From Stutzerimonas decontaminans (GTDB taxonomy: Bacteria; Pseudomonadota; Gammaproteobacteria; Pseudomonadales; Pseudomonadaceae): a stretch of DNA of 64,000 bases. Location: the NCBI RefSeq assembly GCF_000661915.1, contig NZ_CP007509.1, forward strand, positions 4,661,663 through 4,725,662, given 5' to 3'. Below are positions 3,090 through 64,000 of the stretch, one piece after another. The notes under the pieces are model-generated. The model was not told the DNA's origin. It did no database searches and saw only the letters and a program-made list of their open reading frames with translations. Both the position numbers and the translations under genes were made by a program. Numbering within the stretch: the stretch's first letter is position 1; every line of letters begins with the position of its first letter.

Positions 3090-3766
3090 TGGAAGCCCTT
3101 TTCAGCTCCTTGTTAGGCAATGTCGACTGGTACGAGATCTGGCTGGCGACGCTGGACACCCTGCTGATGCTCGGCGGCTCGCTGCTGTTCACCATCCTGC
3201 TTGGCCTGCCGCTGGGCGTGCTGCTGTTTCTCTGCGGCCCGCGCCAGCTGTTCGAAAACGCGCCGCTGTATGCCGCGCTGTCGTTCGTGGTCAACGTATT
3301 GCGCTCGCTGCCGTTCATCATCCTGCTGATCGTGATGATTCCGTTCACCGTGCTGATCACCGGCACCTCGCTGGGCGTGGCCGGTGCCATCCCGCCGCTG
3401 GTGGTAGGCGCCGCGCCATTCTTCGCCCGCCTGGTGGAAACCGCACTGCGCGAAGTGGACCGCGGCATCATCGAGGCGACCCAGGCGATGGGCGCGACGA
3501 CGCGGCAGATCATCTTCAGCGCATTGCTGCCGGAGGCGCGTCCGGGCATCATCGCCGCCATTACCGTCACCGCCATCACCCTGGTGTCCTACACCGCGAT
3601 GGCCGGTGTGGTGGGGGCCGGCGGCCTCGGCGACCTGGCCATCCGCTTCGGCTACCAGCGCTTCCAAACCGACGTGATGGTGGTCACCGTTGTCCTGCTG
3701 CTGGTGCTGGTGCAGGTGCTGCAAAGCGTCGGCGACAGGCTGGTCACCCATTTTTCGCGTAAATGA
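3089..3766 (+). CDS. metI: Methionine ABC transporter permease MetI
   Basis: Inner-membrane permease of the methionine importer, 225 aa, the usual family length. It shows five or six hydrophobic segments and the cytoplasmic EAA loop (IIEATQAMGATTRQIIFSALLPEA, about residues 127-150) that docks on MetN. Its ATG overlaps the metN stop (TGATG). The metQ gene follows after about 200 bases occupied by a palindromic element. Confidence 0.96.
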   Translation: MEALFSSLLGNVDWYEIWLATLDTLLMLGGSLLFTILLGLPLGVLLFLCGPRQLFENAPLYAALSFVVNVLRSLPFIILLIVMIPFTVLITGTSLGVAGAIPPLVVGAAPFFARLVETALREVDRGIIEATQAMGATTRQIIFSALLPEARPGIIAAITVTAITLVSYTAMAGVVGAGGLGDLAIRFGYQRFQTDVMVVTVVLLLVLVQVLQSVGDRLVTHFSRK

Positions 3767-50857: not shown

Positions 50858-51505
50858 TCATGAAGTGCGGCGCAGTATCAGCAGATGGCGCTGGCCTTGG
50901 CAACCGGGAACCTTGAGTACGTGACAGGCATCGAGACGGAAGTCATCGGGTAGCCGTTGCAGCTCGTCGTCCGGCTGCACGCCCTTCATGGCGAGCCAGC
51001 GGGTTTCGGCATTGCCCAGATGGCGCGTCCAGCTGGTGAAGTCGTCCAGCGAGCTGAAAGCGCGCGAGGTGATGCCTTCGAAGGGTATGGCCGGCTGGTA
51101 CTGCTCGACGCGACTGTGCACCACCTCGAGGTTGGCCAGTTTCAGCTCCAGTTTCACCTGTGTCAGAAAGCGCGTCTTCTTGCCGTTCGAATCAAGCAGC
51201 GTGAAGGCCCGCTCGGGAAACATGATTGCCAGCGGCACGCCAGGCATGCCACCACCGCTGCCGACGTCCAGCCAGCTCTGCCCGGACTCGGCAACGAAAG
51301 GCACCACGCTCAGGCTGTCGAGCAGGTGCCGCGAAACCATTTCGTCGGGATCGCGCACTGCGGTGAGGTTGTAGGCCTTGTTCCACTTGATCAGCAACGC
51401 CAGGTAGGCCAGCAACTGCTGCTGTTGCCATTCGCTCAGTTCGATGCCGAGTTCGCGGGCGCCGCGAACGAGTTCTGCGGCTTGGGATTCGCTGACCAGA
51501 CTCAT
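50858..51505 (-). CDS. rsmG: 16S rRNA m7G527 methyltransferase
   Basis: 215-aa SAM-dependent methyltransferase (GidB). SAM motif [22 protein letters not shown] near residue 76, then [12 protein letters not shown]. Loss of the enzyme gives low-level streptomycin resistance in other bacteria. Its ATG overlaps the mnmG stop (ATGA). Confidence 0.97.
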
Positions 51506-53400
51506 CAGGCGCTCTGCTCCAGCTGCTGGCCGGCATTGCGCTTCTTCAGATGAATCATCAGCAACGACACCGCAGCGGGAGTGACACCGGGGATACGCGA
51601 TGCCTGGCCAAGCGTCTCGGGCCGTGCCTGGCCGAGCTTGTGCTGGATCTCCTTCGACAGTCCCGGAATCGTGGTGTAGTCGAGATCAGCCGGCAAGGCG
51701 ATGTTTTCGCTGGCACGCAGCCGCTCGATCTCGTCCTGCTGGCGTTCGATGTAGCCGGCGTACTTGGTCTTGATCTCGACCTGCTCGGCGACCTGCGGAT
51801 CCTGCGCACCGTCACCAGTCAGTTCGATCAGGCTCTGGTAATCGATTTCCGGACGGGCCAGCAGATTGAGTAGGTTGTACTCGCGGGCCAGCGGGCTGCC
51901 GAAGCGCTCGGCAATGGCATCGCCCTGCGGTGTGCCCGGACGGACCCAGCTGCTCTTCAGGCGCTGCTCCTCGAGTTCGATAGCTTCGCGCTTGGCGCAG
52001 AACGCGGCCCAGCGGGCGTCGTCCACCAGCCCCAGCTCGCGGCCCTTCTCGGTGAGGCGCAGATCAGCATTGTCCTCGCGCAGGATCAGCCGATACTCGG
52101 CGCGCGAAGTGAACATGCGATAGGGCTCCTGCGTGCCAAGAGTGATCAGGTCATCGACCAGCACGCCGAGGTAGGCCTCATCGCGGCGCGGACACCAGCT
52201 GTCCTTGCCCTGAGCACGCAGCGCCGCATTGGCGCCGGCGAGCAGGCCCTGGGCACCAGCCTCTTCGTAGCCGGTGGTGCCGTTGATCTGGCCGGCAAAG
52301 AACAACCCGCCGATCACTTTGGTTTCCAGGCTGTACTTGAGATCACGCGGATCGAAGTAGTCGTACTCGATGGCATAGCCCGGCCGCACGATGTGCGCGC
52401 TCTCCATGCCGCGGATGCTCTGCACGATCTGCAGCTGCACGTCGAACGGCAGCGAGGTGGAGATGCCGTTGGGATACAGCTCGTGGGTGGTCAGGCCTTC
52501 CGGCTCGAGGAAGACCTGGTGGCTGTCCTTGTCGGCGAAACGATGAATCTTGTCTTCGATGGACGGGCAGTAGCGCGGGCCCACACCTTCGATCACACCG
52601 GAGTACATCGGCGAGCGATCGAGGTTGGCGGCGATGATTTCGTGGGTTCGCGCGTTGGTGTGGGTGATCCAGCAGCTGACCTGCGGCGGATGCTGCTCAC
52701 GACTGCCCATGAACGACATTACCGGCAGCGGGGTATCGCCTGGCTGTTCGGTCATCAGCGAAAAGTCCACGGTCCGGCCATCGATGCGCGGCGGGGTTCC
52801 GGTCTTCAAGCGTCCCACACGCAGCGGTAGCTCACGCAGCCGATTGGCCAGAGCGATCGAAGGCGGATCGCCTGCACGGCCGCCTGAATAATTCTGCAGG
52901 CCGATGTGGATAAGTCCGCCGAGGAAGGTTCCGGTGGTCAGTACCACGGAATCTGCGAGGAAACGCAGACCCATCTGGGTCACGACACCCCGGACCTGAT
53001 CCTGCTCGACGATGAGGTCGTCCGCCGCCTGCTGGAATATCCACAGGTTAGGCTGGTTCTCCAGGGCTTCGCGGATAGCGGCCTTGTACAGCACGCGATC
53101 AGCCTGCGCACGGGTTGCGCGGACCGCCGGGCCCTTGCGGCTGTTGAGCACGCGGAACTGAATACCACCCTTGTCGGTTGCCATGGCCATGGCACCGCCC
53201 AGGGCATCGATTTCCTTGACCAGATGGCTCTTTCCGATGCCACCGATAGCCGGGTTGCAGCTCATCTGGCCGAGGGTTTCCACATTGTGGCTGAGCAGCA
53301 GGGTCTTCACGCCCATGCGTGCCGCTGCCAGCGCAGCTTCGGTACCGGCATGGCCGCCACCGATAACGATCACGTCAAAACGGGAAGGGAAGTCCACCAC
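51505..53400 (-). CDS. mnmG: tRNA uridine-5-carboxymethylaminomethyl modification enzyme MnmG
   Basis: 631-aa FAD enzyme (GidA) that, with MnmE, modifies the wobble uridine of several tRNAs. FAD-binding [20 protein letters not shown] at the N-terminus; GidA signatures [24 protein letters not shown] and [19 protein letters not shown]. Starts at one of two adjacent GTG codons (53400 or 53397). Its partner mnmE, normally close by, is here about 6 kb away across the Mrp operon. Confidence 0.97.
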
Positions 53401-53519
53401 GCACCTCGTGCCTGTTCAGATTGGATTTCGGGAAACCGCGAAGTATAGGCACTAAGGCTGCGCTAAAGAAGGGCTTTGAACAAAAAATGACCAACCGGAA
53501 GCCGGACGGTCGCTGAATT

Positions 53520-53790
53520 GCATAAATAGAAAATAGAGAAGAAATATATAAAGGGCTTGTAGATATGTTTACTAATGGTGAAGCCACTTTCTGTGGATAA
53601 GGTTCGAGAACGTAGAGCCTACGGGCGGTCCAGCGTTTTAAAAGGTTGTGCTGCGCCTGGGCTGTACCGGTGTAGATCACGTGCGCTACCTGTTGATAAA
53701 GTCGTTACTTATACACAGCAGTGTTATCCATAGGGTTCAGGCTGGGGTTATCTACTTGGCTGAACCTGGGTTATCAACAAGGCTCGTCGG
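53520..53790. other. Origin-like DnaA-box region (mnmG side)
   Basis: The gap between mnmG and mnhG begins with an AT-rich stretch (53521-53575). It contains DnaA-box matches: TGTGGATAA 53592-53600 (exact to TTATCCACA, minus), TGTTGATAA 53691-53699 (one mismatch), TTATACACA 53709-53717 (exact to TTATNCACA), TTATCCATA 53724-53732 (one mismatch), TTATCTACT 53748-53756 (weak) and TTATCAACA 53771-53779 (one mismatch). Boxes at 53592, 53709 and 53771 have counterparts exactly 10,186 bases to the right. A possible mnmG -10 (TATACT, minus) is at 53442-53447. Confidence 0.75.
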
Positions 53791-54219
53791 CTCGTCTACG
53801 TTGGCACGCAGGTCTGCTCTGCCAGGTTCTGGATTTCGCTGGGGAGGTCTTTTCTCGGTCTGTGCGAGATATTCGTCGAGCGTTAGCGGGCTGCGTTCGA
53901 GCACGCCATCCAGCGCATCGTCGCCATGCAGGCCGTCGAGCCGAGCCCCCGACACATAGGCAGCCCGCCCAAGCAGGTGACCAGCGATAGGAATGGTCAG
54001 CATCAGAAAGATCACGGTGGCGGTGCCGATGAAGGTGGCCTGGGCGTCGCCCATCTCGATCATCACCCCGACGAGGATGAGTCCGGCACCCACCGTACCG
54101 GACTTGGTCGTGGCATGGATTCGCTGCAGGGGATCGGCAAAGCGCAGCAGGCCGAACATCGCGGCGAACAGAAAGATCACACCGACCAGCATGAAAGCCA
54201 CTGCCAGGATTTCGATCAT
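53752..54219 (-). CDS. mnhG: Mrp-type Na+/H+ antiporter subunit G
   Basis: 155-aa small membrane subunit with three helices (residues 3-24, 42-58, 66-90): ILAVAFMLVGVIFLFAAMFGLLRFADPLQRIHATTKSGT. Start ATG 54219 overlaps the mnhF stop. The hydrophilic tail after residue 90 is long for the family. Its last residues (SLVDNPGSAK) are encoded by DnaA-box sequence of the origin-like region, suggesting the frame runs on into DNA that was there first. Confidence 0.92.
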   Translation of the reverse strand: MIEILAVAFMLVGVIFLFAAMFGLLRFADPLQRIHATTKSGTVGAGLILVGVMIEMGDAQATFIGTATVIFLMLTIPIAGHLLGRAAYVSGARLDGLHGDDALDGVLERSPLTLDEYLAQTEKRPPQRNPEPGRADLRANVDEPTSLVDNPGSAK

Positions 54220-54476
54220 TGCTCGCTCCTCCCCTTGCGCATGATGAAGACGGCGAAGGCGCAGGTCCCGACGAAACCGATCAGTCCGAGACCGAAACCC
54301 ACGTCGAGAAACTCCCGGCGTCCGGTCATTGCAGCGACCAGCGCGGCGATGGCAACCCCAACGCCGGTCAGCATGTCCAGCGCGACCACGCGGTCGACCA
54401 GTGTCTTCGCGACGATCATTCGCCAGAGGGTCAAGGCCAGCGGCAGCATGACCAGGATCAGCAGCGTCGTGATCAT
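54216..54476 (-). CDS. mnhF: Mrp-type Na+/H+ antiporter subunit F
   Basis: 86-aa three-helix membrane protein: ITTLLILVMLPLALTLWRMIVAKTLVDRVVALDMLTGVGVAIAALVA. ATG 54476 has GAGAGG 8 bases upstream; GTG codons at 54485 and 54482 are alternatives. Overlaps mnhG by four bases. Confidence 0.92.
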   Translation of the reverse strand: MITTLLILVMLPLALTLWRMIVAKTLVDRVVALDMLTGVGVAIAALVAAMTGRREFLDVGFGLGLIGFVGTCAFAVFIMRKGRSEQ

Positions 54477-54478
54477 GC

Positions 54479-54820
54479 TCACCACCTCTCGATGCGCGCG
54501 ATGCGGCGCTCGAAGACTTGCCTGATCGACGTGATGATCTGCTCCGGCGCGCGGCCATCCAGCGCATGCACGTAGAGCAGGCGACGATCCTCGCTGACGT
54601 GCAATGCGCAGTTGCCCGGAGTCAGCGAAACCAGACTGGCGAGCACCGCGACGCCGAGGTCGGTGCGCAGCTCGATGGGTACCGCGATGATCGAACTCTG
54701 CATGTTCGGCGCTGGCGAAAAGGCAGCGGCAGCCACTGCAACAGACGAGACGATCAGCTCATAGAGGTAGATGCCGAGCAGCTCGACCACATCGAGTACT
54801 CGGCGCAGCAGGCTGGTCAT
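54479..54820 (-). CDS. mnhE: Mrp-type Na+/H+ antiporter subunit E (short form)
   Basis: 113 aa, shorter than the ~160 aa usual for MrpE. The conserved core is present (GIYLYELIVSSVAVAAAAFSP, AVPIELRTDLGVAVLASLVSLTPGNCALHVSEDRRLLYVHALD), but the first two membrane helices of typical MrpE are absent. The ATG overlaps the mnhD stop (ATGA), so there is no room for a longer start within the gap. Either a natural short variant or an ancient N-terminal loss. Confidence 0.88.
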   Translation of the reverse strand: MTSLLRRVLDVVELLGIYLYELIVSSVAVAAAAFSPAPNMQSSIIAVPIELRTDLGVAVLASLVSLTPGNCALHVSEDRRLLYVHALDGRAPEQIITSIRQVFERRIARIERW

Positions 54821-56337
54821 GGGCGAGGCTCCAGGATCGGGTTAGCCGGCAGCACGGCCGACAGGTAAGCGCTGGGCTCCAGCAGTGCCGCGGCGGCGGT
54901 TTGCGAAAAGAGGATCAACGGTTGCGGCATGAAACCGATCACCAGGGTCAGCGCACCGAGCGAGGCGATCGCCAGCAGCATGGGCAGCGGTATCCGGCGG
55001 GCCTCGGCGCGCGGCAGTACCGGCTTCTTCCAAAAGGCTTCCATCCAGATCTTGCTCATCGAATAGAGGGTCAACAGGCCGACGAACAGCGCCAGCCCGG
55101 CTAACCAGTGCTCGCCGGCACGGAAGCTCGCGTCGATCACGAGGAACTTCGCCCAGAAGCCGGACAGCGGCGGCAAGCCGGCCAGGGACAAAGCCGGTAC
55201 CAGAAACAGCGCGGCCAGTAGAGGGTTGCGATACATCAGGCCGCCGCTCTTGCGCAGATCGAAGGTGCCGGAGGCCCGGTGAATGGCGCCGGCGAGCAGG
55301 AACAGGTTCGCCTTCACGATGATGTGGTGAATGATGTAGAAGATCGCCCCGGCGAGCGCCGCCTGGGTGGATATGGCCAAGCCAAGCAGCATGTAGCCGA
55401 TCTGGCTGACGATGTGGAACGAGAGGATTCGCCGTACGTCCCACTGCACCGCCGCACCGAAGACCCCGAACAGCATGGTGCCGGCCGCCAGCACCGCGAC
55501 GATCTCACGGATACCGCTGTCCTCGACGCTGAAGATCAGGGTGAACACGCGGAAACAGGCATATACGCCGACCTTCGTCAGCAGCCCGGCGAAGATCGCC
55601 GAAACCGTGATCGAGGCCGTGTGATACGACGCCGGCAGCCAGAAGAACAACGGGAAATAGCCGGCCTTGATGCCGAAGCCACAGAGCAGCAGCAGCGCCG
55701 ACAGCGTCAGGTTGATCGACGGTTCGGTCTCGGGCAGCACCCGGGCGAGATCCGCCATGTTCAGCGTTCCGGTCGCGCCGTAGAGCAGTGCAACCCCGGT
55801 CAGAAACAGCAGCGTGGAGAACAGGTTGAGCACTGCATAGCGCACCGTCGCATCGAGCCGGGCGCGATTGCGGCCGATCGACAGCAGGCCCATCGCGGTG
55901 ATCAGCATCACCTCAAACCAGACGTACAGGTTGAAGATATCGCCGGTGAGGAAGGCACCGTTTACGCCGGCCAGCATGCCCAGCATCAATGGATAGAAGC
56001 CTGCCTGTTCCTCGCGGCGGCGAATATCGGCCAGGCCGAAGGTCATCACCGCGGCGGCAAGGATGCCGGTAATGGCCGCCATGGCTGCGGACAGTGCATC
56101 GGCGACGAATACCACGCCGAAGGGAGCATCCCAGCCGCCAAAGCGAATCGCCAGCACGCCCTGCTGGTAAACCGCAGCGAGCAGCAGTAGCGAAGATACT
56201 AACAGCAGAGTTATGCACAGGCCGGTGACCAGTCGTTGCGCGCGGCGATGTTTCGACAGGCAGGTCGCCAGACCCGCACCGAGAATCGGCAGCAGTACCG
56301 GCCAGAGCGGCGCATGCAGGATCAGGAATTCGGTCAC
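54817..56337 (-). CDS. mnhD: Mrp-type Na+/H+ antiporter subunit D
   Basis: 506-aa antiporter subunit related to NuoM/NuoN of complex I, about fourteen helices. Proton-translocation landmarks: YVWFEVMLITAMGLLSIG with the conserved Glu, KAGYFPLFFWLPASYHTASITVSAIFAGLLTKVGVYA with the conserved Lys residues. Overlaps mnhC and mnhE by a few bases. Confidence 0.95.
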   Translation of the reverse strand: MTEFLILHAPLWPVLLPILGAGLATCLSKHRRAQRLVTGLCITLLLVSSLLLLAAVYQQGVLAIRFGGWDAPFGVVFVADALSAAMAAITGILAAAVMTFGLADIRRREEQAGFYPLMLGMLAGVNGAFLTGDIFNLYVWFEVMLITAMGLLSIGRNRARLDATVRYAVLNLFSTLLFLTGVALLYGATGTLNMADLARVLPETEPSINLTLSALLLLCGFGIKAGYFPLFFWLPASYHTASITVSAIFAGLLTKVGVYACFRVFTLIFSVEDSGIREIVAVLAAGTMLFGVFGAAVQWDVRRILSFHIVSQIGYMLLGLAISTQAALAGAIFYIIHHIIVKANLFLLAGAIHRASGTFDLRKSGGLMYRNPLLAALFLVPALSLAGLPPLSGFWAKFLVIDASFRAGEHWLAGLALFVGLLTLYSMSKIWMEAFWKKPVLPRAEARRIPLPMLLAIASLGALTLVIGFMPQPLILFSQTAAAALLEPSAYLSAVLPANPILEPRP

Positions 56338-56717
56338 GGGCGATCCTTAGTGGCCGGGAATGGCGAACCCAGGCGCTCGGCTGCATCGATATCGCGCGTA
56401 TCGACGCTGCCCGCGCTGCGGTAGGTCTGCAATGCCAGGGCAGCGAAGAACGCGGTCAGTGAAAAGCCAATGACGATTGCGGTGAGAACCAGCGCCTGGG
56501 GCAGCGGGTTGGCGGCATCGGCGGCCAGGCTGGTCTCGCCGGCGCGGATGACGGCGGGGACGTTCGTAACGATCCGCCCGGAGAGGAAGATCACCAGATT
56601 GATCGCCGCCGAGAGCATGGTCACGCCCAGCAGGATCCGCACGATATGGCGGGAAAGGATCAGGTACAGGCTGCAGCCAGCAACGATGGCGATGGCGAAT
56701 GCAAAGAGCAGATGCAT
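56334..56717 (-). CDS. mnhC: Mrp-type Na+/H+ antiporter subunit C
   Basis: 127-aa NuoK-like three-helix subunit: GCSLYLILSRHIVRILLGVTMLSAAINLVIF, then PLPQALVLTAIVIGFSLTAFFAALAL. Hydrophilic tail of about 28 residues. One base separates it from mnhB. Confidence 0.95.
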   Translation of the reverse strand: MHLLFAFAIAIVAGCSLYLILSRHIVRILLGVTMLSAAINLVIFLSGRIVTNVPAVIRAGETSLAADAANPLPQALVLTAIVIGFSLTAFFAALALQTYRSAGSVDTRDIDAAERLGSPFPATKDRP

Positions 56718-56718
56718 A

Positions 56719-57120
56719 TCAGAGGCCCTCGTAGAAACGCAGGATCAGAGAAAGGATGCCGCCCAGCACGACCAGGTAGACGCCGATATCGAACAGCAGG
56801 GTGGTGCCGATATGGACGCTGCCGAGAATTGCCCACTGGTGGGCCAGGAACGAGTCGTCCAGCCAGAGGCCTGGCAGCCCGCCAAGCAGCGCAGCGAGGA
56901 CGCCGCAACCGATCACTGTCATCGGTTCGAAGCGCAGCGTGGCGCGGGCCACGTCCACGCCACGGGCAAGCGCCAGCGTCGCGAATCCGGCCGCTGCGAT
57001 CAGCCCGCCGACGAATCCGCCACCCGGCTCGTTGTGCCCGCGGTAGAGCACGTACAGCGACACCGCCAGCATCAGGCCGAAGAGAATCCGCGAGAAGGCG
57101 GCGAAGATCAGAGAATTCAT
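56719..57120 (-). CDS. mnhB: Mrp-type Na+/H+ antiporter subunit B
   Basis: 133-aa four-helix membrane subunit with the family sequence VLYRGHNEPGGGFVGGLIAAAGFATLALA. ATG 57120 overlaps the mnhA stop (ATGA). It is separate here rather than fused to subunit A. Confidence 0.95.
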   Translation of the reverse strand: MNSLIFAAFSRILFGLMLAVSLYVLYRGHNEPGGGFVGGLIAAAGFATLALARGVDVARATLRFEPMTVIGCGVLAALLGGLPGLWLDDSFLAHQWAILGSVHIGTTLLFDIGVYLVVLGGILSLILRFYEGL

Positions 57121-59426
57121 GGCGCGGCCCTCCTGCGAGGCATAACGCGCAGCAGCCCCCACACGCTCATCGCGGCGAAGGCCACCACGATCACCTCACC
57201 CAACGTGTCGATGGCGCGGTAGTCCACCAGCACCACATTCACCACGTTGCGACCATGGGCCTCGAGATAGCTGGTCGCCGCATAGAACTCGGAGATCCGT
57301 CCATCCAGGGGCAATGCCACCGTGGCGGCCAATGCGACGAAGACCACCAGCGCGAAACCGGCCGAGAGCAGGATGTCCAGGCGCTTTTCCCGCGGCTCGC
57401 GGGTCGATGCAGCGCGCTCAGGCACCCGCAGCAGCAGCGCGACCAGAATCAGCACCATCAGCACTTCGACCGAGAACTGGGTGAGCGCAACGTCTGGCGC
57501 GCCATTGAGCAGGAAGATCAGCGCCGAGCCGAACCCCACCACGCCAACCGCGATCATGGCGCGCAGTAGCGATGGGGTGCGCGTCGCGGCAAAGGCACCC
57601 AGGCACATCAGCAGCAGCACGATGATCGAGGGCGCATCGAAGCGCCCGCCGGTCATGGCGATTAGCGGACGCGTTCCGCTGGCCAGCACGCCATAGCCGA
57701 TGATCAGCAGCACCGCTGCCGCGACCGTGGAGGTGTAGCGGTGCTGATCACCGTTCTGCAGAAACCGGGTGCAGCGTTCGGCCAGGCGCAGGAGGCCGGC
57801 GAATGCGGCGTTGAAGCCGAAATCGCCAAGCACCCGGGCCAACCCCTTGTTCAGTGACAGCGCATAGTGGATGCGATGCCAGTAGGCGATCAGTCCGCCG
57901 GCGAACGCGACCACGGTGGCGCTCAGCGCGAGCATCGGCGTAAAGCCGTGCCAGAGCGAGAAGGACAGATCCACGGTATGTCCGACCAGCACATCATTGG
58001 CCGGCTGGATCAGCCCGCGCACGAGGAAGTCAGGCGCCAGACCGAACAGGAAACCCAGCCCTCCCAGTACCAGCGGTCCGAGGTACAGGCCCAGGGTTTC
58101 CGGATGCTTGATCTCGCTGCGTGTCTTGCCGAGGTAATAGGGACGAATGGCCGCCACCCCGGCGATTGCGGCGAAAACCGCATTGACCAGAACCGCCACG
58201 GCGACCACCACCCAGCCTGAGGATGCGTTGAGCTGGCTCTCGAACAGGTATTCCTTGGTAATGAAACCCAGCGTCGGCGGCAGTCCGGCCATCGAGATCG
58301 CCGCCATGCCGGCCGCCAGGGTGGTCATCGGCAGGCGTCGGGCCAGCCCGCCGATCTTGCTCAGTCGGCCCTCGCCTACTGCATGGATGGTTGTTCCGGC
58401 GCAGAAGAACAGCGCCGCCTTGTACAGCGCGTGGGCGATGATGAAGGCAATCAGCGCGGTCACCGAGTAATCGCCGTCCAGCCCGATCAGCATCACCAGC
58501 ACCCCCAGCGAGCCCACGGTGGAATGCGCCAAGACCTCCTTGAAGCCATCAGTGGATAGCGCCCGTACCGCGGCCACCAACATGGTCAGGCTACCGACGA
58601 TCACCAGGGTCGAGCCAAAGGCAGGGATGCCCTCGAAGATGAGATCGAAGCGGGCCAGCAGGTACACCCCCAACTTGACCATGGTCGCCGAGTGCAGAAA
58701 GGCCGAGGCCGGCGCTGGCGCTTCCATGGCCTGCGGCAGCCAGAAATGAAACGGCAGCTGCGCCGACTTGGTGAAGGCGCCGAGCATGATCAGGATCATC
58801 GCCGGCACGGCCAGGGGACTGGCCAGCAGCTCCGGCGCACGCTGCGCCACTTCGGAGAGTGAGAAGGTACCCAGCGTGATGCCGATCAAGAGGATGCCGC
58901 CGAACAGTGCCAGCCCGCCGCCGCCGGTCACGATGAGCGATTGCAGCGCGGCCTTGCGTGCTTGCGCGCGGTGCGAGTTGAAGCCGATCAGCATGAACGA
59001 CAACAGGCTGGTCGCCTCCCAGAACACGAACATGACGATGAGGTTGTCGGACAGCACGGTCCCCAGCATGGCGGTCATGAACAACAGGATCAGGGTGAGG
59101 AAACGTGCAGCCTCCTCCTTCGGCGAATGCGAGAAGTAGGCGCCTGCGTAGATCGTCACCAGGGTGCCGATGCCGGTGATCAGGAGCACGAACAGCAGGG
59201 CGAAGCCATCAAGCCTCAGGGTCAGCGAGATGCCCAGTGCTGGCACCCACTCGAGGGTTTCGGTGATGGCACCGACCTCGGGAAGACTGGCGCCTTTCGC
59301 CAGAAAGAACAGGAACAGCCCGGCTGGCAACAGCGCAGCGACCCATCCCCCATGGGGAAAGGTACGGCTGACGATGAACCTGGCGAGGATCGCCCCCAGG
59401 AATGAAACGAGTAATGCAGCAAGCAC
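57117..59426 (-). CDS. mnhA: Mrp-type Na+/H+ antiporter subunit A
   Basis: 769-aa large subunit related to NuoL. Conserved FWEATSLLSFMLIGFNSH (key Glu), KSAQLPFHFWLPQAMEAPAPASAFLHSATMVKLGVYLLARF with channel Lys residues, and a C-terminal part with the MrpA-specific helices (LNGAPDVALTQFSVEVLMVLILVALLLR, VDYRAIDTLGEVIVVAFAA). GTG 59426 with GAGGA 7 bases upstream is preferred; an 18-residue extension is possible. First gene of a seven-gene operon in A-B-C-D-E-F-G order, all overlapping or nearly so. Exports Na+ in exchange for H+ under salt or alkaline stress. Confidence 0.95.
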   Translation of the reverse strand: MLAALLVSFLGAILARFIVSRTFPHGGWVAALLPAGLFLFFLAKGASLPEVGAITETLEWVPALGISLTLRLDGFALLFVLLITGIGTLVTIYAGAYFSHSPKEEAARFLTLILLFMTAMLGTVLSDNLIVMFVFWEATSLLSFMLIGFNSHRAQARKAALQSLIVTGGGGLALFGGILLIGITLGTFSLSEVAQRAPELLASPLAVPAMILIMLGAFTKSAQLPFHFWLPQAMEAPAPASAFLHSATMVKLGVYLLARFDLIFEGIPAFGSTLVIVGSLTMLVAAVRALSTDGFKEVLAHSTVGSLGVLVMLIGLDGDYSVTALIAFIIAHALYKAALFFCAGTTIHAVGEGRLSKIGGLARRLPMTTLAAGMAAISMAGLPPTLGFITKEYLFESQLNASSGWVVVAVAVLVNAVFAAIAGVAAIRPYYLGKTRSEIKHPETLGLYLGPLVLGGLGFLFGLAPDFLVRGLIQPANDVLVGHTVDLSFSLWHGFTPMLALSATVVAFAGGLIAYWHRIHYALSLNKGLARVLGDFGFNAAFAGLLRLAERCTRFLQNGDQHRYTSTVAAAVLLIIGYGVLASGTRPLIAMTGGRFDAPSIIVLLLMCLGAFAATRTPSLLRAMIAVGVVGFGSALIFLLNGAPDVALTQFSVEVLMVLILVALLLRVPERAASTREPREKRLDILLSAGFALVVFVALAATVALPLDGRISEFYAATSYLEAHGRNVVNVVLVDYRAIDTLGEVIVVAFAAMSVWGLLRVMPRRRAAP

Positions 59427-59700
59427 GGCGCCATCCTCTTGTCGGGGATTGCTGGAAACGGCTGCGTGTTTTGATAACAAAGGTAGTTCAAAGGATGCGC
59501 CGACGGCTGTTACCAGCTATGTCAGGCGCAGCGGCAGGCGGGGTACGAAGGCTGCGAGAGAAGGATGGCTGGCGGGACCCTGACGGGTCGCCAGCTCAGT
59601 GTTAACGGCGCTTGCAGCGGGGCAGGCGAAGACTGTCAGCGTGCCGGTCGGCACATCGAAACGCCGCCCGGGCGGGGTTGCCCGAACGCTTTTTCAATTG

Positions 59701-61068
59701 TTACTTGCCTATGCAGAAGCTCGAGAAGATGCGCCCGAGCAGGTCATCGGAGCTGAATGCGCCAGTGATCTCGCCCAGTGTCTGCTGTGCCAGACGCAGG
59801 TCCTCGGCGAGCAGCTCACCGGCGCCGGCCAGCGTCAGCTGGTCGTAACCGTGCCGCAGATGCTCGTCGGCCAGGCGCAGTGCATCGAGGTGCCGGCGCC
59901 GCGCGCTGAAGCTGCTTTCGGTGGTCTGCTCGTACCCCATGCACTGCTTCAGGTGTTCACGCAGCAGCTCGATGCCTTCGCCTGAACGCGCGCAAAGGCT
60001 TAGCGTCACATGCCCATCGGCGCTGACGCTCAGAGCAATCGCCTCTCCGCTGAGGTCGGCCTTGTTGCGGATCAGCGTTACCCTGCTCGGCTCCGGGCTG
60101 AAGTCCAGGAACTCGGGCCACAGCGCGAGCGGATCCTCAGCCTCTGGTGCGCTGGCGTCGACCATCAGCAAGATACGGTCCGCCTCGCCGATAGCGCTGA
60201 GGGCGCGCTGCACGCCGATGCGCTCGACCTGATCCTCGGTATCACGCAGGCCGGCGGTATCGACCACGTGCAAGGGCATGCCATCGATGAGGATGTGTTC
60301 GCGCAGCACGTCACGGGTGGTTCCGGCGATATCGGTAACGATGGCCGCCTCACGGCCTGCCAGCGCATTGAGCAGGCTGGACTTGCCGGCATTGGGCCGA
60401 CCGGCGATGACCACGGTCATCCCGTCACGCAGCAAGGCGCCCTGCCCTGCCTCACGCAACACTGTGGATAACTCTTCGCGCACGCCGTTGAGCTGTTCCA
60501 GCACGTGGCCATCGGCGAGAAAGTCGATTTCTTCTTCAGGAAAATCGATCGCTGCCTCAACGTAGATGCGCAGCTGAATCAGCTTTTCGGTCAGTTGATG
60601 CACCCGTCGCGAGAATTCGCCTTGCAGCGAGCGCACCGCATTGCGCGCCGCCTGGGTGGAGCTGGCTTCGATAAGGTCGGCAATGGCTTCGGCCTGGGCG
60701 AGATCGAGCTTGTCGTTGAGAAAGGCGCGCTCGCTGAACTCTCCGGGCCGCGCGAGTCGCACGCCGAGCTCGACACAACGTTGCAGCAGCATATCCAACA
60801 CAACCGGGCCGCCATGCCCCTGCAGTTCGAGCACGTCTTCGCCGGTAAACGAATGCGGTCCCGGAAAGAACAACAGCAGGCCTTCGTCGATCACTTCGCC
60901 GTCGTCAGCATGAAACGCGCCGTAGTGCGCATGCCGTGGCGTTGGCTCGCGGCCGCTCAGGGTAATCGCGATCCCTCTGGCACGCGGACCGGATACACGG
61001 ACGATGCCGACGCCTCCGCGGCCAGGAGCTGTGGCGACAGCGGCGATGGTGTCGCGAACTGGATTCAT
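59701..61068 (-). CDS. mnmE: tRNA modification GTPase MnmE
   Basis: 455-aa GTPase (TrmE), partner of MnmG. N-terminal formyl-THF-binding domain ([23 protein letters not shown]), G domain inserted in the helical domain: [39 protein letters not shown]-terminal CIGK carries the essential Cys. ATG 61068 is preceded by AAAGGAGGCCTC. Confidence 0.97.
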
Positions 61069-61098
61069 GAGGCCTCCTTTCTGGATGGCAGATAGCAA

Positions 61099-61120
61099 AA
61101 CGCCCCAATCAAGGGGCGTT
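61099..61120 (-). terminator. Terminator after yidC
   Basis: AACGCCCC-(6-base loop)-GGGGCGTT followed on the minus strand by TTTTGC, 22 bases after the yidC stop and 31 bases before mnmE. Confidence 0.8.
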
Positions 61121-61141
61121 CTGCATTTGGCTGTTGAGACG

Positions 61142-62812
61142 TCAGGCTGTCTTCGCCGCCGCCTCGATCTGCCGGGTAATGTACCACTGCTGGGCGATGG
61201 ACAGGACGTTGTTGACGACCCAGTACAGCACCAGACCAGCTGGGAACCAGAGGAAGAAGAAGGTGAAGATGATCGGCAACAGCTTCATCACCCGCGCCTG
61301 CATCGGATCCGGCGGTGTCGGGTTGAGCTGCTGCTGGATGAACATGGTCACGCCCATGATGATCGGCAGGATGAAGAACGGATCCTTGATCGACAGGTCG
61401 GTGATCCAGAACATCCAGGGCGCCTGGCGCATCTCGACGCTTTCCAAGAGTACCCAGTACAGCGCAAGGAAGACCGGCATCTGCACCAGAATCGGCAGGC
61501 AGCCGCCCAGCGGATTGATCTTCTCCTTCTTGTACAACTCCATCATCGCCTGGGACATCTTCTGGCGATCATCACCGAACTGCTCTTTCAGCGCCTGCAT
61601 CTTCGGCGATACCGCACGCATGCGCGCCATCGAACGATAGCTGGCGGCGGAGAGCGGGAAGAAGGCGAGTTTGATGATGATCGTCAGGACGATGATCGAC
61701 CAACCCCAGTTGCCCAGCAGCGCGTGGATATTTTCCAGCAGCCAGAAGATTGGCTGAGCGATGAACCAGAGGATGCCGTAGTCGACGGTCAGACGCAGAC
61801 CGGGCGACAGCTCTTCCAGCTTGTCCTGGCTCTTCGGACCGGCATACAGGGTGGCGCCGGTTTCACCCTGGGCGCCCGCTGCTACGGTGACCGCCGGGCC
61901 GGTGAAGCCGATGATGTAGTTGCCCTGGCTGTCCTTGCGGGTCTGCACCTGGTTGGTATCGTCGGCCTGAGGAATCCAGGCGGTGACGAAATAGTGCTGT
62001 AGCCAGGCGATCCAGCCGCCCTGAACGGTTTCGCGCAGGTTCTTGTCATCCATGTCGCCCATGGAAACCTTGCGATACGGCTCGTCCTTGGTCCACAGCG
62101 CCGCACCGAGGTAGGTGGCGGTGCCTGTGGCTGTGCTCGAGGACGGGTCGCCACTCTTGTCGCGCTTGAGCTGGCCGAACAGATAACCGGTCCAGGGCTG
62201 GTCGCTCTGGTTGTCGATCAGGTAGTTCACCTTCAACGCGTAGTTGCCACGCTCCAAGGTGAAACGCTTGATGTAGTTGACGCCGTCAGCGCTGTAGTTC
62301 AGGTCCACGACCAGCTGATCCTGGCCTTCGCCCAGCTGGTACTCGGTCTTCTCGCTGCTGTACTGAGGACGCCCGCTGGCCTTGTCCGGACCATCGCCGA
62401 TCAGCCCGCTCTGCGCCTCGTAGGTGCGCTCGCCACTGCGTTCGAACAGCTGGAACGGCACATCGGGACGATCCTGACGACGTGGAAATTGCGGCAGATG
62501 CAGCTCGACGATGTCACCACCACGCGGGTCGATGGCTACATCCAGCACATCAGTACGCACGCGGATCAGCTGGCTGCTCGGCGCCGTGGCCGGCAGGGCG
62601 CTAGCCTGTTGCTGACCAGCCACTGCTGGCACGTCATCGGCATTGCCTTCGCTGGTAGCGCTCGGACTGTCCGGAAGGGTCGGAACGCCAGGCTGGCTTT
62701 GCGCGGTTTCGGTCGGCAGTGCTGCCTGACCGTAGTCCTGATTCCATTGAAGAACCATCAGGTAGGCAACGACTGCTAATGCTACGAGCAGTATCGAGCG
62801 TTTGATATCCAT
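61142..62812 (-). CDS. yidC: Membrane protein insertase YidC
   Basis: 556-aa insertase that places proteins such as ATP synthase c subunit in the inner membrane. N-terminal helix [24 protein letters not shown], a large periplasmic beta domain (about residues 55-340), then the five-helix core. The core includes [27 protein letters not shown] with the hydrophilic-groove Arg, and [23 protein letters not shown]. Confidence 0.97.
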
Positions 62813-62814
62813 GG

Positions 62815-63060
62815 TTACTCGGCCATCGGAGATGAATTGGAAGTGTTATGGGAAGGCACGGGATCGTAGCCACCGGGATTCCACGGGTGGCAGCGTCCCA
62901 GCCTGCGCAGACTCAGCCAGCCGCCACGCAACAGACCATGATTTTCGATGGCCTCGAGTGCATAGCAGGAGCAGCTTGGATAGAAACGGCAGTGACTAGC
63001 CATCATGGGGCTGATGGCGTACTGGTAGACCTTGATCGAAGCGATGGCCAATTTACGCAT
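62815..63060 (-). CDS. yidD: Membrane insertion efficiency factor YidD
   Basis: 81-aa protein (DUF37): [58 protein letters not shown], with the three conserved cysteines and the amphipathic N-terminus. Overlaps the end of rnpA by 8 bases and lies 2 bases before yidC. Confidence 0.96.
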
Positions 63061-63448
63061 GGGTGCTGTTGGCGGCTCCAGGTTCGACGGCGGTCTTGGA
63101 TGGGCTGCGTGACAGTCGCCTCCAAAGCTTGGCGAATTGCTTCGCCAGTTCGGGATTGTCCAGATCAGCCAATCCCTTGCGGGCGACGATCACGATGTCC
63201 CAGCCCGCCAGCTCCAACTGATGATGGCGAAAGGTCTCCCGTATCTGCCGCTTGATGCGGTTACGTTCAACCGAAAGCTTGACGCTTTTCTTGCCGATCA
63301 CCAGCCCGAGGCGGGGGTGTTGCAGATCGTTCTCTCGTGCCAACAGCAGGACATTCCTGCCAGGCACCTTACCGGAAGGGGAGTCGAAGACTGCCTTGAA
63401 TTGGCGGGGAGTCAGCAGTCGCTTTTCCCGGCCGAAGCCCCGACTCAC
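63053..63448 (-). CDS. rnpA: Ribonuclease P protein component
   Basis: 131-aa basic protein that with M1 RNA trims tRNA 5' leaders. GTG start at 63448. Signature [19 protein letters not shown] and the N-terminal [20 protein letters not shown]-terminal tail is low-complexity Ser/Ala-rich. Confidence 0.96.
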
Positions 63449-63462
63449 TACCTGTTCCGATG

Positions 63463-63597
63463 TCAGACGGTCAGACGCTTACGGCCTTTGGCGCGACGAC
63501 GCGACAGAACTTGACGACCGTTCTTGGTGGCCATACGGGCACGGAAGCCATGGGTACGAGCGCGCTTGATGGTGCTGGGTTGGAAAGTGCGTTTCAT
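63463..63597 (-). CDS. rpmH: 50S ribosomal protein L34
   Basis: 44-aa ribosomal protein: starts [20 protein letters not shown] and ends KGRKRLTV. Fourteen bases separate it from rnpA. Very basic, as expected. It anchors the window to the origin region: dnaA reads away on the other side. Confidence 0.97.
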
Positions 63598-63656
63598 GGT
63601 GCGTTTACCTGGTGATCCATCGTGGGCCGGAATGGCCCCCTTTTAAGAGACCGGCG

Positions 63657-63685
63657 ATTGTAGAGAAGCTGCCAGGCCAGGTCAA
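63657..63685 (-). promoter_or_regulatory. Sigma70 promoter of rpmH-rnpA
   Basis: On the minus strand TTGACC, 17 bases, TACAAT, about 60 bases upstream of rpmH. A GGGGGCC/GGCCC stem-loop lies in the short leader near 63620-63642. Confidence 0.75.
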
Positions 63686-63705
63686 TTTCCAACCAGCCCC
63701 ATCGG

Positions 63706-64000
63706 GCTGAAAAAAATAAAAGGAAAAGAAATATAAGCTCTTAAGATGTAGTGCTTATGTATGTACAGGCCATTTTCTGTGGATAGATGGTTGCAGAGCA
63801 ATGCTGGCTTAGCGTTCAGCGAAATTGAACTGGGTGGGTAACCGGTGTCTGGGCGGTGCAGAGCTTCTGAGCAACCTGGGGATTAAATGAGGAGATATCC
63901 ACAGCGAAGTTCATGCCTAGCTTCCACACAGGCTTAAACACTGGCCTTAGGCGTGGTTATCAACAGGGCTCTGCTGAAGTTAGTTTCATATACAGAGCGC
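63706..64000. other. Replication origin region oriC (rpmH-dnaA side, cut by window end)
   Basis: AT-rich stretch at 63711-63760 followed by DnaA-box matches TGTGGATAG 63778-63786 (minus, one mismatch), ATATCCACA 63895-63903 (one mismatch) and TTATCAACA 63957-63965 (one mismatch). The rpmH-dnaA intergenic region is the known origin location in pseudomonads. The remaining sequence and dnaA are beyond the window. Only the left part of the origin can be described. Confidence 0.8.

Follow-up and report, generated by a model that had tools for sequence, protein, structure and literature searches.

Introduction

Bacterial chromosomes are usually taught as having a single origin of replication, and in Pseudomonas that origin, oriC, was reportedly placed between rpmH and dnaA by Yee and Smith in 1990. 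DnaA-box regions near gidA (mnmG) and near dnaA are both part of the picture in this genus, and Jiang et al. are said to have described, in 2006, two origin-like regions in one pseudomonad, one of which was reportedly dispensable. Here we examine such a pair in the final 64,000 bases of contig NZ_CP007509.1 of Stutzerimonas decontaminans (positions 4,661,663 to 4,725,662; this whole stretch is hereafter called the window), where region A lies beside mnmG and region B occupies the spacer between rpmH and dnaA. By position and by its boxes, region B is the rpmH-dnaA origin, and we saw no difference for it; the pair as a whole resembles the Jiang et al. system, in which a single pseudomonad is likewise reported to have two such regions. 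That a pseudomonad can carry a further region of this type is already in print. What is new here is the exact register that the two regions share and a joint shift in its spacing, neither of which we found described in the literature searched.

In those parts of the published sources that were available, oriC of Pseudomonas putida is placed between rpmH and dnaA (a review, PMC3056050), the P. putida dnaA promoter is credited with 12 DnaA boxes (PMC8203912), and two autonomously replicating elements are mentioned for Pseudomonas aeruginosa (PMC4403523). A second DnaA-dependent start near a working origin, at the other classical place, has been described in Escherichia coli rnhA mutants, in which a latent start zone, oriK-3850, borders dnaA and requires oriC, about 75 kb away, for its strong induction (PMC12000880). 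That system is a mirror image of ours, with the main origin of the wild type on the mnmG side; its start zone is broad, and the available portion of the paper describes no shared register for it. Bipartite origins such as those of Bacillus subtilis and Helicobacter pylori, as far as the accessible text describes them (PMC4285127), have an unwinding element in one half only and a short spacer, unlike regions A and B, which each have an AT-rich stretch and are separated by 4.3 to 10.2 kb in free phase.

Regions A and B carry DnaA boxes in the same register

Counted from box R1 as position 0, both regions carry DnaA boxes in identical order and orientation at 0 (minus), 99 (minus), 117 (plus) and 179 (plus), with an offset of 10,186 bases between the regions (Table 1). 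An earlier model-made note on this DNA, which we call the sequence-only reading, had listed three box pairs (R1, +117 and R4) and two weaker ones (+99 and +156) at this offset, and all five hold to the base. Its distance of 43 to 44 bases from the AT-rich segment to the box needed correction: AGAAATATA begins at 53540 in A and 63727 in B and TTTCTGTGGATA at 53588 and 63774, which puts their starts 48 and 47 bases apart. Besides the shared boxes, region A has two more sites, at +132 and +156, of which only the latter has a partner in B, a degenerate one. The contig end joins its base 1 inside the rpmH-dnaA spacer, and region B runs past window base 64000 into contig base 1; a further box, TGTGGATAA, stands at base 42 there and dnaA follows at 112. 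The box names R1, R2, R4 and R5M follow E. coli usage.

Table 1. Window coordinates of regions A and B and of their left neighbour genes
Feature	Position	Strand	Remarks
Region A, candidate unwinding element (AT-rich, left of R1)	53517..53577		77% A+T (window, 37%)
Region A, box R1 TTATCCACA, register position 0	53592..53600	-	
Region A, box +99 TTATCAACA	53691..53699	-	degenerate B partner TGGGGATTA at 63877
Region A, box +117 TTATACACA	53709..53717	+	E. coli R2 at +106
Region A, box +132 TTATCCATA	53724..53732	+	no partner at that offset in this genome's B
Region A, weak box +156 TTATCTACT	53748..53756	+	partner TTAAACACT at 63934
Region A, box R4 +179 TTATCAACA	53771..53779	+	E. coli R4 at +180
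Region B, candidate unwinding element (AT-rich, left of R1)	63703..63763		70% A+T
Region B, box R1 CTATCCACA	63778..63786	-	
Region B, degenerate box +99	63877..63885	-	
Region B, box +117 ATATCCACA	63895..63903	+	
Region B, degenerate box +156 TTAAACACT	63934..63942	+	
Region B, box R4 +179 TTATCAACA	63957..63965	+	
mnmG (gidA), left neighbour of region A	51505..53400	-	NCBIfam mnmG_gidA 917 bits, cut-off 525
rpmH, left neighbour of region B, stop codon excluded	63466..63597	-	NCBIfam rpmH_bact 90 bits, cut-off 38

Region A has two of the parts expected of an oriC: a box cluster in fixed order and orientation, measuring 179 bp from R1 to R4 (180 in E. coli), and an AT-rich stretch that adjoins R1. 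The likeness of this stretch to an unwinding element is one of composition only, with a mean A+T content over positions -75 to -15 of 0.78 in A and 0.74 in B (44 genomes) and a mean majority-base share of 0.75 and 0.70. Stretches of 60 bp as AT-rich as that of region A make up about 3 in 100,000 of those in the window, that stretch itself being counted.

Chance seldom produces the register. With up to one mismatch allowed per box, the 0/117/179 triple never appeared when the rpmH-dnaA spacer was shuffled 20,000 times (mononucleotide shuffles), and when four boxes were placed at random on the strands that they have in B, the triple arose in 4 of 200,000 placements.

The register is conserved across the Pseudomonadaceae

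We scanned reference genomes with mnmE to obtain 80 named loci and then placed mnmG, rpmH and dnaA by tblastn. Judged by mnmE, the named locus closest to the present genome is that of Stutzerimonas zhaodongensis (91% identity). The main set consists of L030 to L077 and this genome (49 in all, with L068, titled Paucimonas, retained); L042 has no region A and L034 no region B within reach, which leaves 48 of each. For each region we took the best triple of boxes (minus, plus, plus) with a first gap of 95 to 135 and a second gap of 45 to 85, ties going to the smaller gaps. The 117/62 register was the best triple in 45 of the 48 A regions (118/62 in 2, 116/63 in 1) and in 39 of the 48 B regions (117/63 in 3, 118/62 in 3, 132/47 in 2, 133/47 in 1). 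Exceptions to a first gap of 117 outside Halopseudomonas include region B of L039 (118/62) and region A of both L075 (116/63) and L192, from the genus Stutzerimonas (116). At six loci (L033, L035, L056, L069, L072 and L074), B stands at 117/63, 132/47 or 133/47 while A holds 117/62, so that the register can be kept more strictly in A than in B.

A strict form of the pattern found at least one match in 229 of 298 Pseudomonadaceae genomes and two in 121; a reversed control found 0. Among 244 genomes of the order, 14 were matched, namely 7 Pseudomonadaceae (4 of them twice) and 7 others once each, the latter beside mnmG in 2 cases and beside rpmH or dnaA in 5. The comparison with relatives that the sequence-only reading had proposed thus finds the spacing kept in both regions across the family, which argues for selection.

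Column counts were made on a gapless stack of 45 of the 48 A regions and 43 of the 48 B regions; regions that exceeded 5 mismatches at 117/62 were excluded. The proposal that the copy beside mnmG has the better boxes is correct for this genome (1 mismatch versus 3) but fails for the family, where zero mismatches are found in 27/43 B regions and 4/45 A regions.

The spacing has shifted in both regions of Halopseudomonas

In the genus Halopseudomonas, a relaxed pattern matched 27 of 37 genomes, 13 of them twice. The first gap was 118 in all 13 A regions and, among 17 B regions, 118 in 13, 119 in 3 and 117 in 1; in comparison loci drawn from the family, it was 117 in 30 of 30. Only matches with a locus identifier were sorted by neighbour gene for these counts. 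The nearest of ten named references was a Halopseudomonas for all 30 loci of the shifted genus, and both named Halopseudomonas loci have 118/62 in A and in B. In length, the change falls in the interval from R1 to the +99 (or +100) box.

A register that is the same in both regions, conserved in the family and jointly shifted suggests that the complex formed by DnaA is the same on A as on B. The joint shift is the best sign of this, suggesting that one kind of complex reads A and B alike, and its weight is limited by the small number of independent changes and by common ancestry within one genus. Outside the family, 117/62 or 117/63 was best or tied for best in 6 of the 28 B regions examined (L078 to L109) and 118/62 in 1, and five mnmG-side regions have a first gap of 116 or 117. 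These gaps hint, weakly, that 117 may be older than 118.

Similarity outside the boxes bears no sign of recent copying

The alignment of A with B that had also been proposed shows that their similarity extends beyond the boxes and peaks in register. With box columns masked, A and B of this genome are identical at 0.451 of positions in register, compared with no more than 0.353 at any of 30 other shifts, and the mean over 41 genomes is 0.434 at zero shift, compared with at most 0.318 elsewhere. Shared motifs include [AG]GCC near +17 (29/45 A, 33/43 B) and TGTACAG near +37 (28/45 A, 25/43 B).

We considered whether one region is a recent copy of the other and whether gene conversion between them is ongoing. 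Same-genome identity (0.434) does exceed that of shuffled pairings (mean 0.422, p 0.001, 5,000 shuffles), but the excess vanishes against nearest relatives (mean differences of -0.0044 and -0.0005), so relatedness explains it and we rejected both possibilities. Region A is old and bears no sign of ongoing copying to or from B. A mobile origin was likewise rejected, since neither region found a match in a plasmid collection by distant blastn.

These results divide the proposal that A and B are duplicate origins under selection. Two origin-like regions of the same layout, with conserved spacing, are indeed present, but with about 43% identity outside the boxes they are not recent copies, and the word "duplicate" is further qualified by how common box clusters upstream of mnmG are in the order (see below).

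Region A shares its place and frame with E. coli oriC

The oriC of E. coli is found in the upstream sequence of mnmG; 168 bases separate its R1 from the gene, and further boxes follow at +55 and +106, with R4 at +180. Region A lies on the same side of mnmG in the same orientation, its R1 192 and its R4 371 bases upstream of the gene. The frame is also alike: an AT-rich side, R1 on the minus strand, a weak minus-strand site at +55 (its counts, given below, vary with the measure), a plus-strand box and a plus-strand R4, which stands at +179 in A and B. The pseudomonads differ in adding a minus-strand box at +99 and a second nearby region of the same register.

We also used two wider samples: the best 30 loci from 96 genomes of the order (4 of them Pseudomonadaceae, including this one; L207 has 311 bases upstream) and the best 29 new loci from 95 genomes of the class. 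Both consist of best matches only, so distant genomes are under-represented. At least four boxes lie upstream of mnmG in 23 of the 30 order loci (mean 5.0 versus 0.7 expected) and in 19 of the 26 outside the family. On these counts, the mnmG-side cluster is older than the Pseudomonadaceae.

Region A as a candidate auxiliary origin

We consider it about an even chance, roughly 50%, that region A is a second origin-type DnaA platform built on B's template and kept by selection, perhaps as an auxiliary or latent origin. DnaA would then assemble the same kind of complex on A and B, from R1 and R4. Region B would start replication in ordinary growth, when A would seldom or never be the main start site, and A would be a DnaA-dependent origin of an auxiliary or latent kind, called on if B is weak or under stress, or else a DnaA buffer. 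E. coli would present the same arrangement with the roles exchanged, its mnmG-side oriC being the main origin and its latent DnaA-dependent zone lying at the dnaA side. We assign the main role to B because of its placement in the literature (PMC3056050, as far as available) and the direction of the genes; skew did not decide the matter.

Several observations weigh against such a role for A. The strict pattern is unmatched in 69 of the 298 family genomes, and Halopseudomonas has almost none of the GGCC and TGTACAG motifs (1/15 and 0/15 in A, 3/19 and 0/19 in B). The first plus-strand box of E. coli oriC stands at +106, compared with +117 in the pseudomonad regions. The site at +55, the place of R5M in E. 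coli, is not distinctive of A: TGTG occurs there in 40/45 A and 0/43 B, which had led us to regard A as the more E. coli-like region, but a whole box with up to 2 mismatches occurs in 6/45 A versus 26/43 B, and we dropped that idea when this count reversed the contrast. Since the +55 site is weak in both regions, the frame is common to A, B and E. coli, and only its position on the mnmG side ties A specifically to E. coli oriC. In the class sample, at least four boxes lie upstream of mnmG in only 2 of 29 loci (one of the 29 has no upstream sequence), so these data do not establish that A and E. coli oriC share an ancestor.

A further such point concerns integration host factor (IHF). A match to the IHF consensus near +226, on the reverse strand, occurs in 27/43 B regions, 0/45 A regions and 0/19 Halopseudomonas B regions, and is absent from B of this genome. 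Region A differs in this from the Pseudomonas rpmH-dnaA origin, and may be without a part of B. Separately, an IHF-like sequence about 27 bases from R1, with up to 1 mismatch, is found in 11/15 A and 2/19 B regions of Halopseudomonas (L141 to L170); this position is not among the best positions listed for A regions of other genera, and the consensus used also misses E. coli oriC.

Region A might instead be a sink or recycling site for DnaA that times initiation at B, its register serving a cooperative complex that starts no replication. The E. coli loci datA and DARS, which combine DnaA boxes with an IHF site and have no unwinding element, offer a comparison. The strict register of A would suit this role, as would its place 4.3 to 10.2 kb from B in 44 genomes, boxes that are on average weaker than those of B, and the lack of the IHF-like site at +226. 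Region A has nevertheless kept an AT-rich stretch, as B has, which a sink would not need, and we think a sink somewhat unlikely.

It is also conceivable that A and B are the halves of one bipartite origin, joined in a DnaA-bridged loop. The two clusters are close together, and the dependence of the E. coli dnaA-side zone on a distant oriC, in the part of that work available (PMC12000880), offers a precedent. However, the spacer ranges from 4,265 to 10,200 bp over the 44 genomes, A and B have no common helical phase in them (resultant 0.13), and each half has an AT-rich stretch of its own, unlike bipartite origins as the accessible text describes them (PMC4285127). These features make a bipartite origin quite improbable. 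Very unlikely, too, is that A is merely a DnaA-controlled promoter region of mnmG: its distance from the gene would fit, but such a promoter does not account for five positions that match the register of another spacer, for the move of both regions to 118 or for the AT-rich stretch that they share.

The last alternative turns on strand composition and on a published motif. Total GC skew is -0.032 and -0.016 left of A, 0.029 in the 10-kb block between A and B, and 0.019 in the right arm; plus-strand skew at third codon positions (GC3 skew) of minus-strand genes is 0.064 and 0.081 left of A, 0.036 in the block and 0.102 in the right arm, so that the two measures point in opposite directions for the block. 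The gammaBOriS paper, in the part available, gives TTCTGTGGATAGA as the Pseudomonas oriC R1 motif (PMC7174414), and this motif occurs in 23/45 A regions and 3/43 B regions, which suggests that the gammaBOriS Pseudomonas set may hold A-type sequences. That A serves as the main origin, or fires as often as B, in at least some pseudomonads is highly unlikely: although A of this genome has the richer AT stretch and the better boxes, the gammaBOriS motif favours A and the total skew of the block shares its sign with the right arm and not with the left, the genes between A and B point leftward, as if replicated from B, the coding-strand GC3 skew of the block (-0.036, five genes) is nearer the codirectional range (-0.064 to -0.085) than the head-on range (-0.102 to -0.132), and the P. 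putida review, in its available part, sets oriC at rpmH-dnaA (PMC3056050).

A bolder form of the reading of A as an auxiliary origin, which we offer tentatively and rather doubt, is that Pseudomonadaceae have two complete, separately conserved origins on one DnaA template, one on the mnmG side and one on the dnaA side, whose spacing would be set by the initiation complex of the lineage, hence the joint change in Halopseudomonas, and of which the mnmG-side one would fire under some conditions. If this were true, these chromosomes would be conditionally two-origin, and they would show a route by which the main origin could move between places in gammaproteobacteria. The twin regions offer a natural test of the spacings that the initiation complex needs and a possible intermediate between dnaA-side and mnmG-side origins. 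They also call for caution with automated sets of Pseudomonas origins, which may contain either region.

Gene neighbourhood and minor observations

NCBIfam models above cut-off name mnmG, mnmE, yidC, rnpA, rpmH and dnaA. Between A and B lie mnmE, yidC, rnpA and, from 53752 to 59480, between region A and mnmE, an operon for an Mrp-type sodium/proton antiporter (five of its proteins match Pfam models; with NCBIfam models, subunit G scores above its cut-off and subunit B below). The variation in the distance from A to B indicates that the place between A and mnmE takes inserts. The open frame of subunit G extends to 53752, so that box R4 of region A falls inside it; the NCBIfam match stops at residue 107 of 156. 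A parS-type pattern gave a single match, TGTTTCACGTGGAACA, at 3755 to 3770 of L029, some 3.8 kb to the right of where the record starts; it matched nowhere in the window, nowhere in 100 kb to the left of the window and at no second place in 115 kb rightward.

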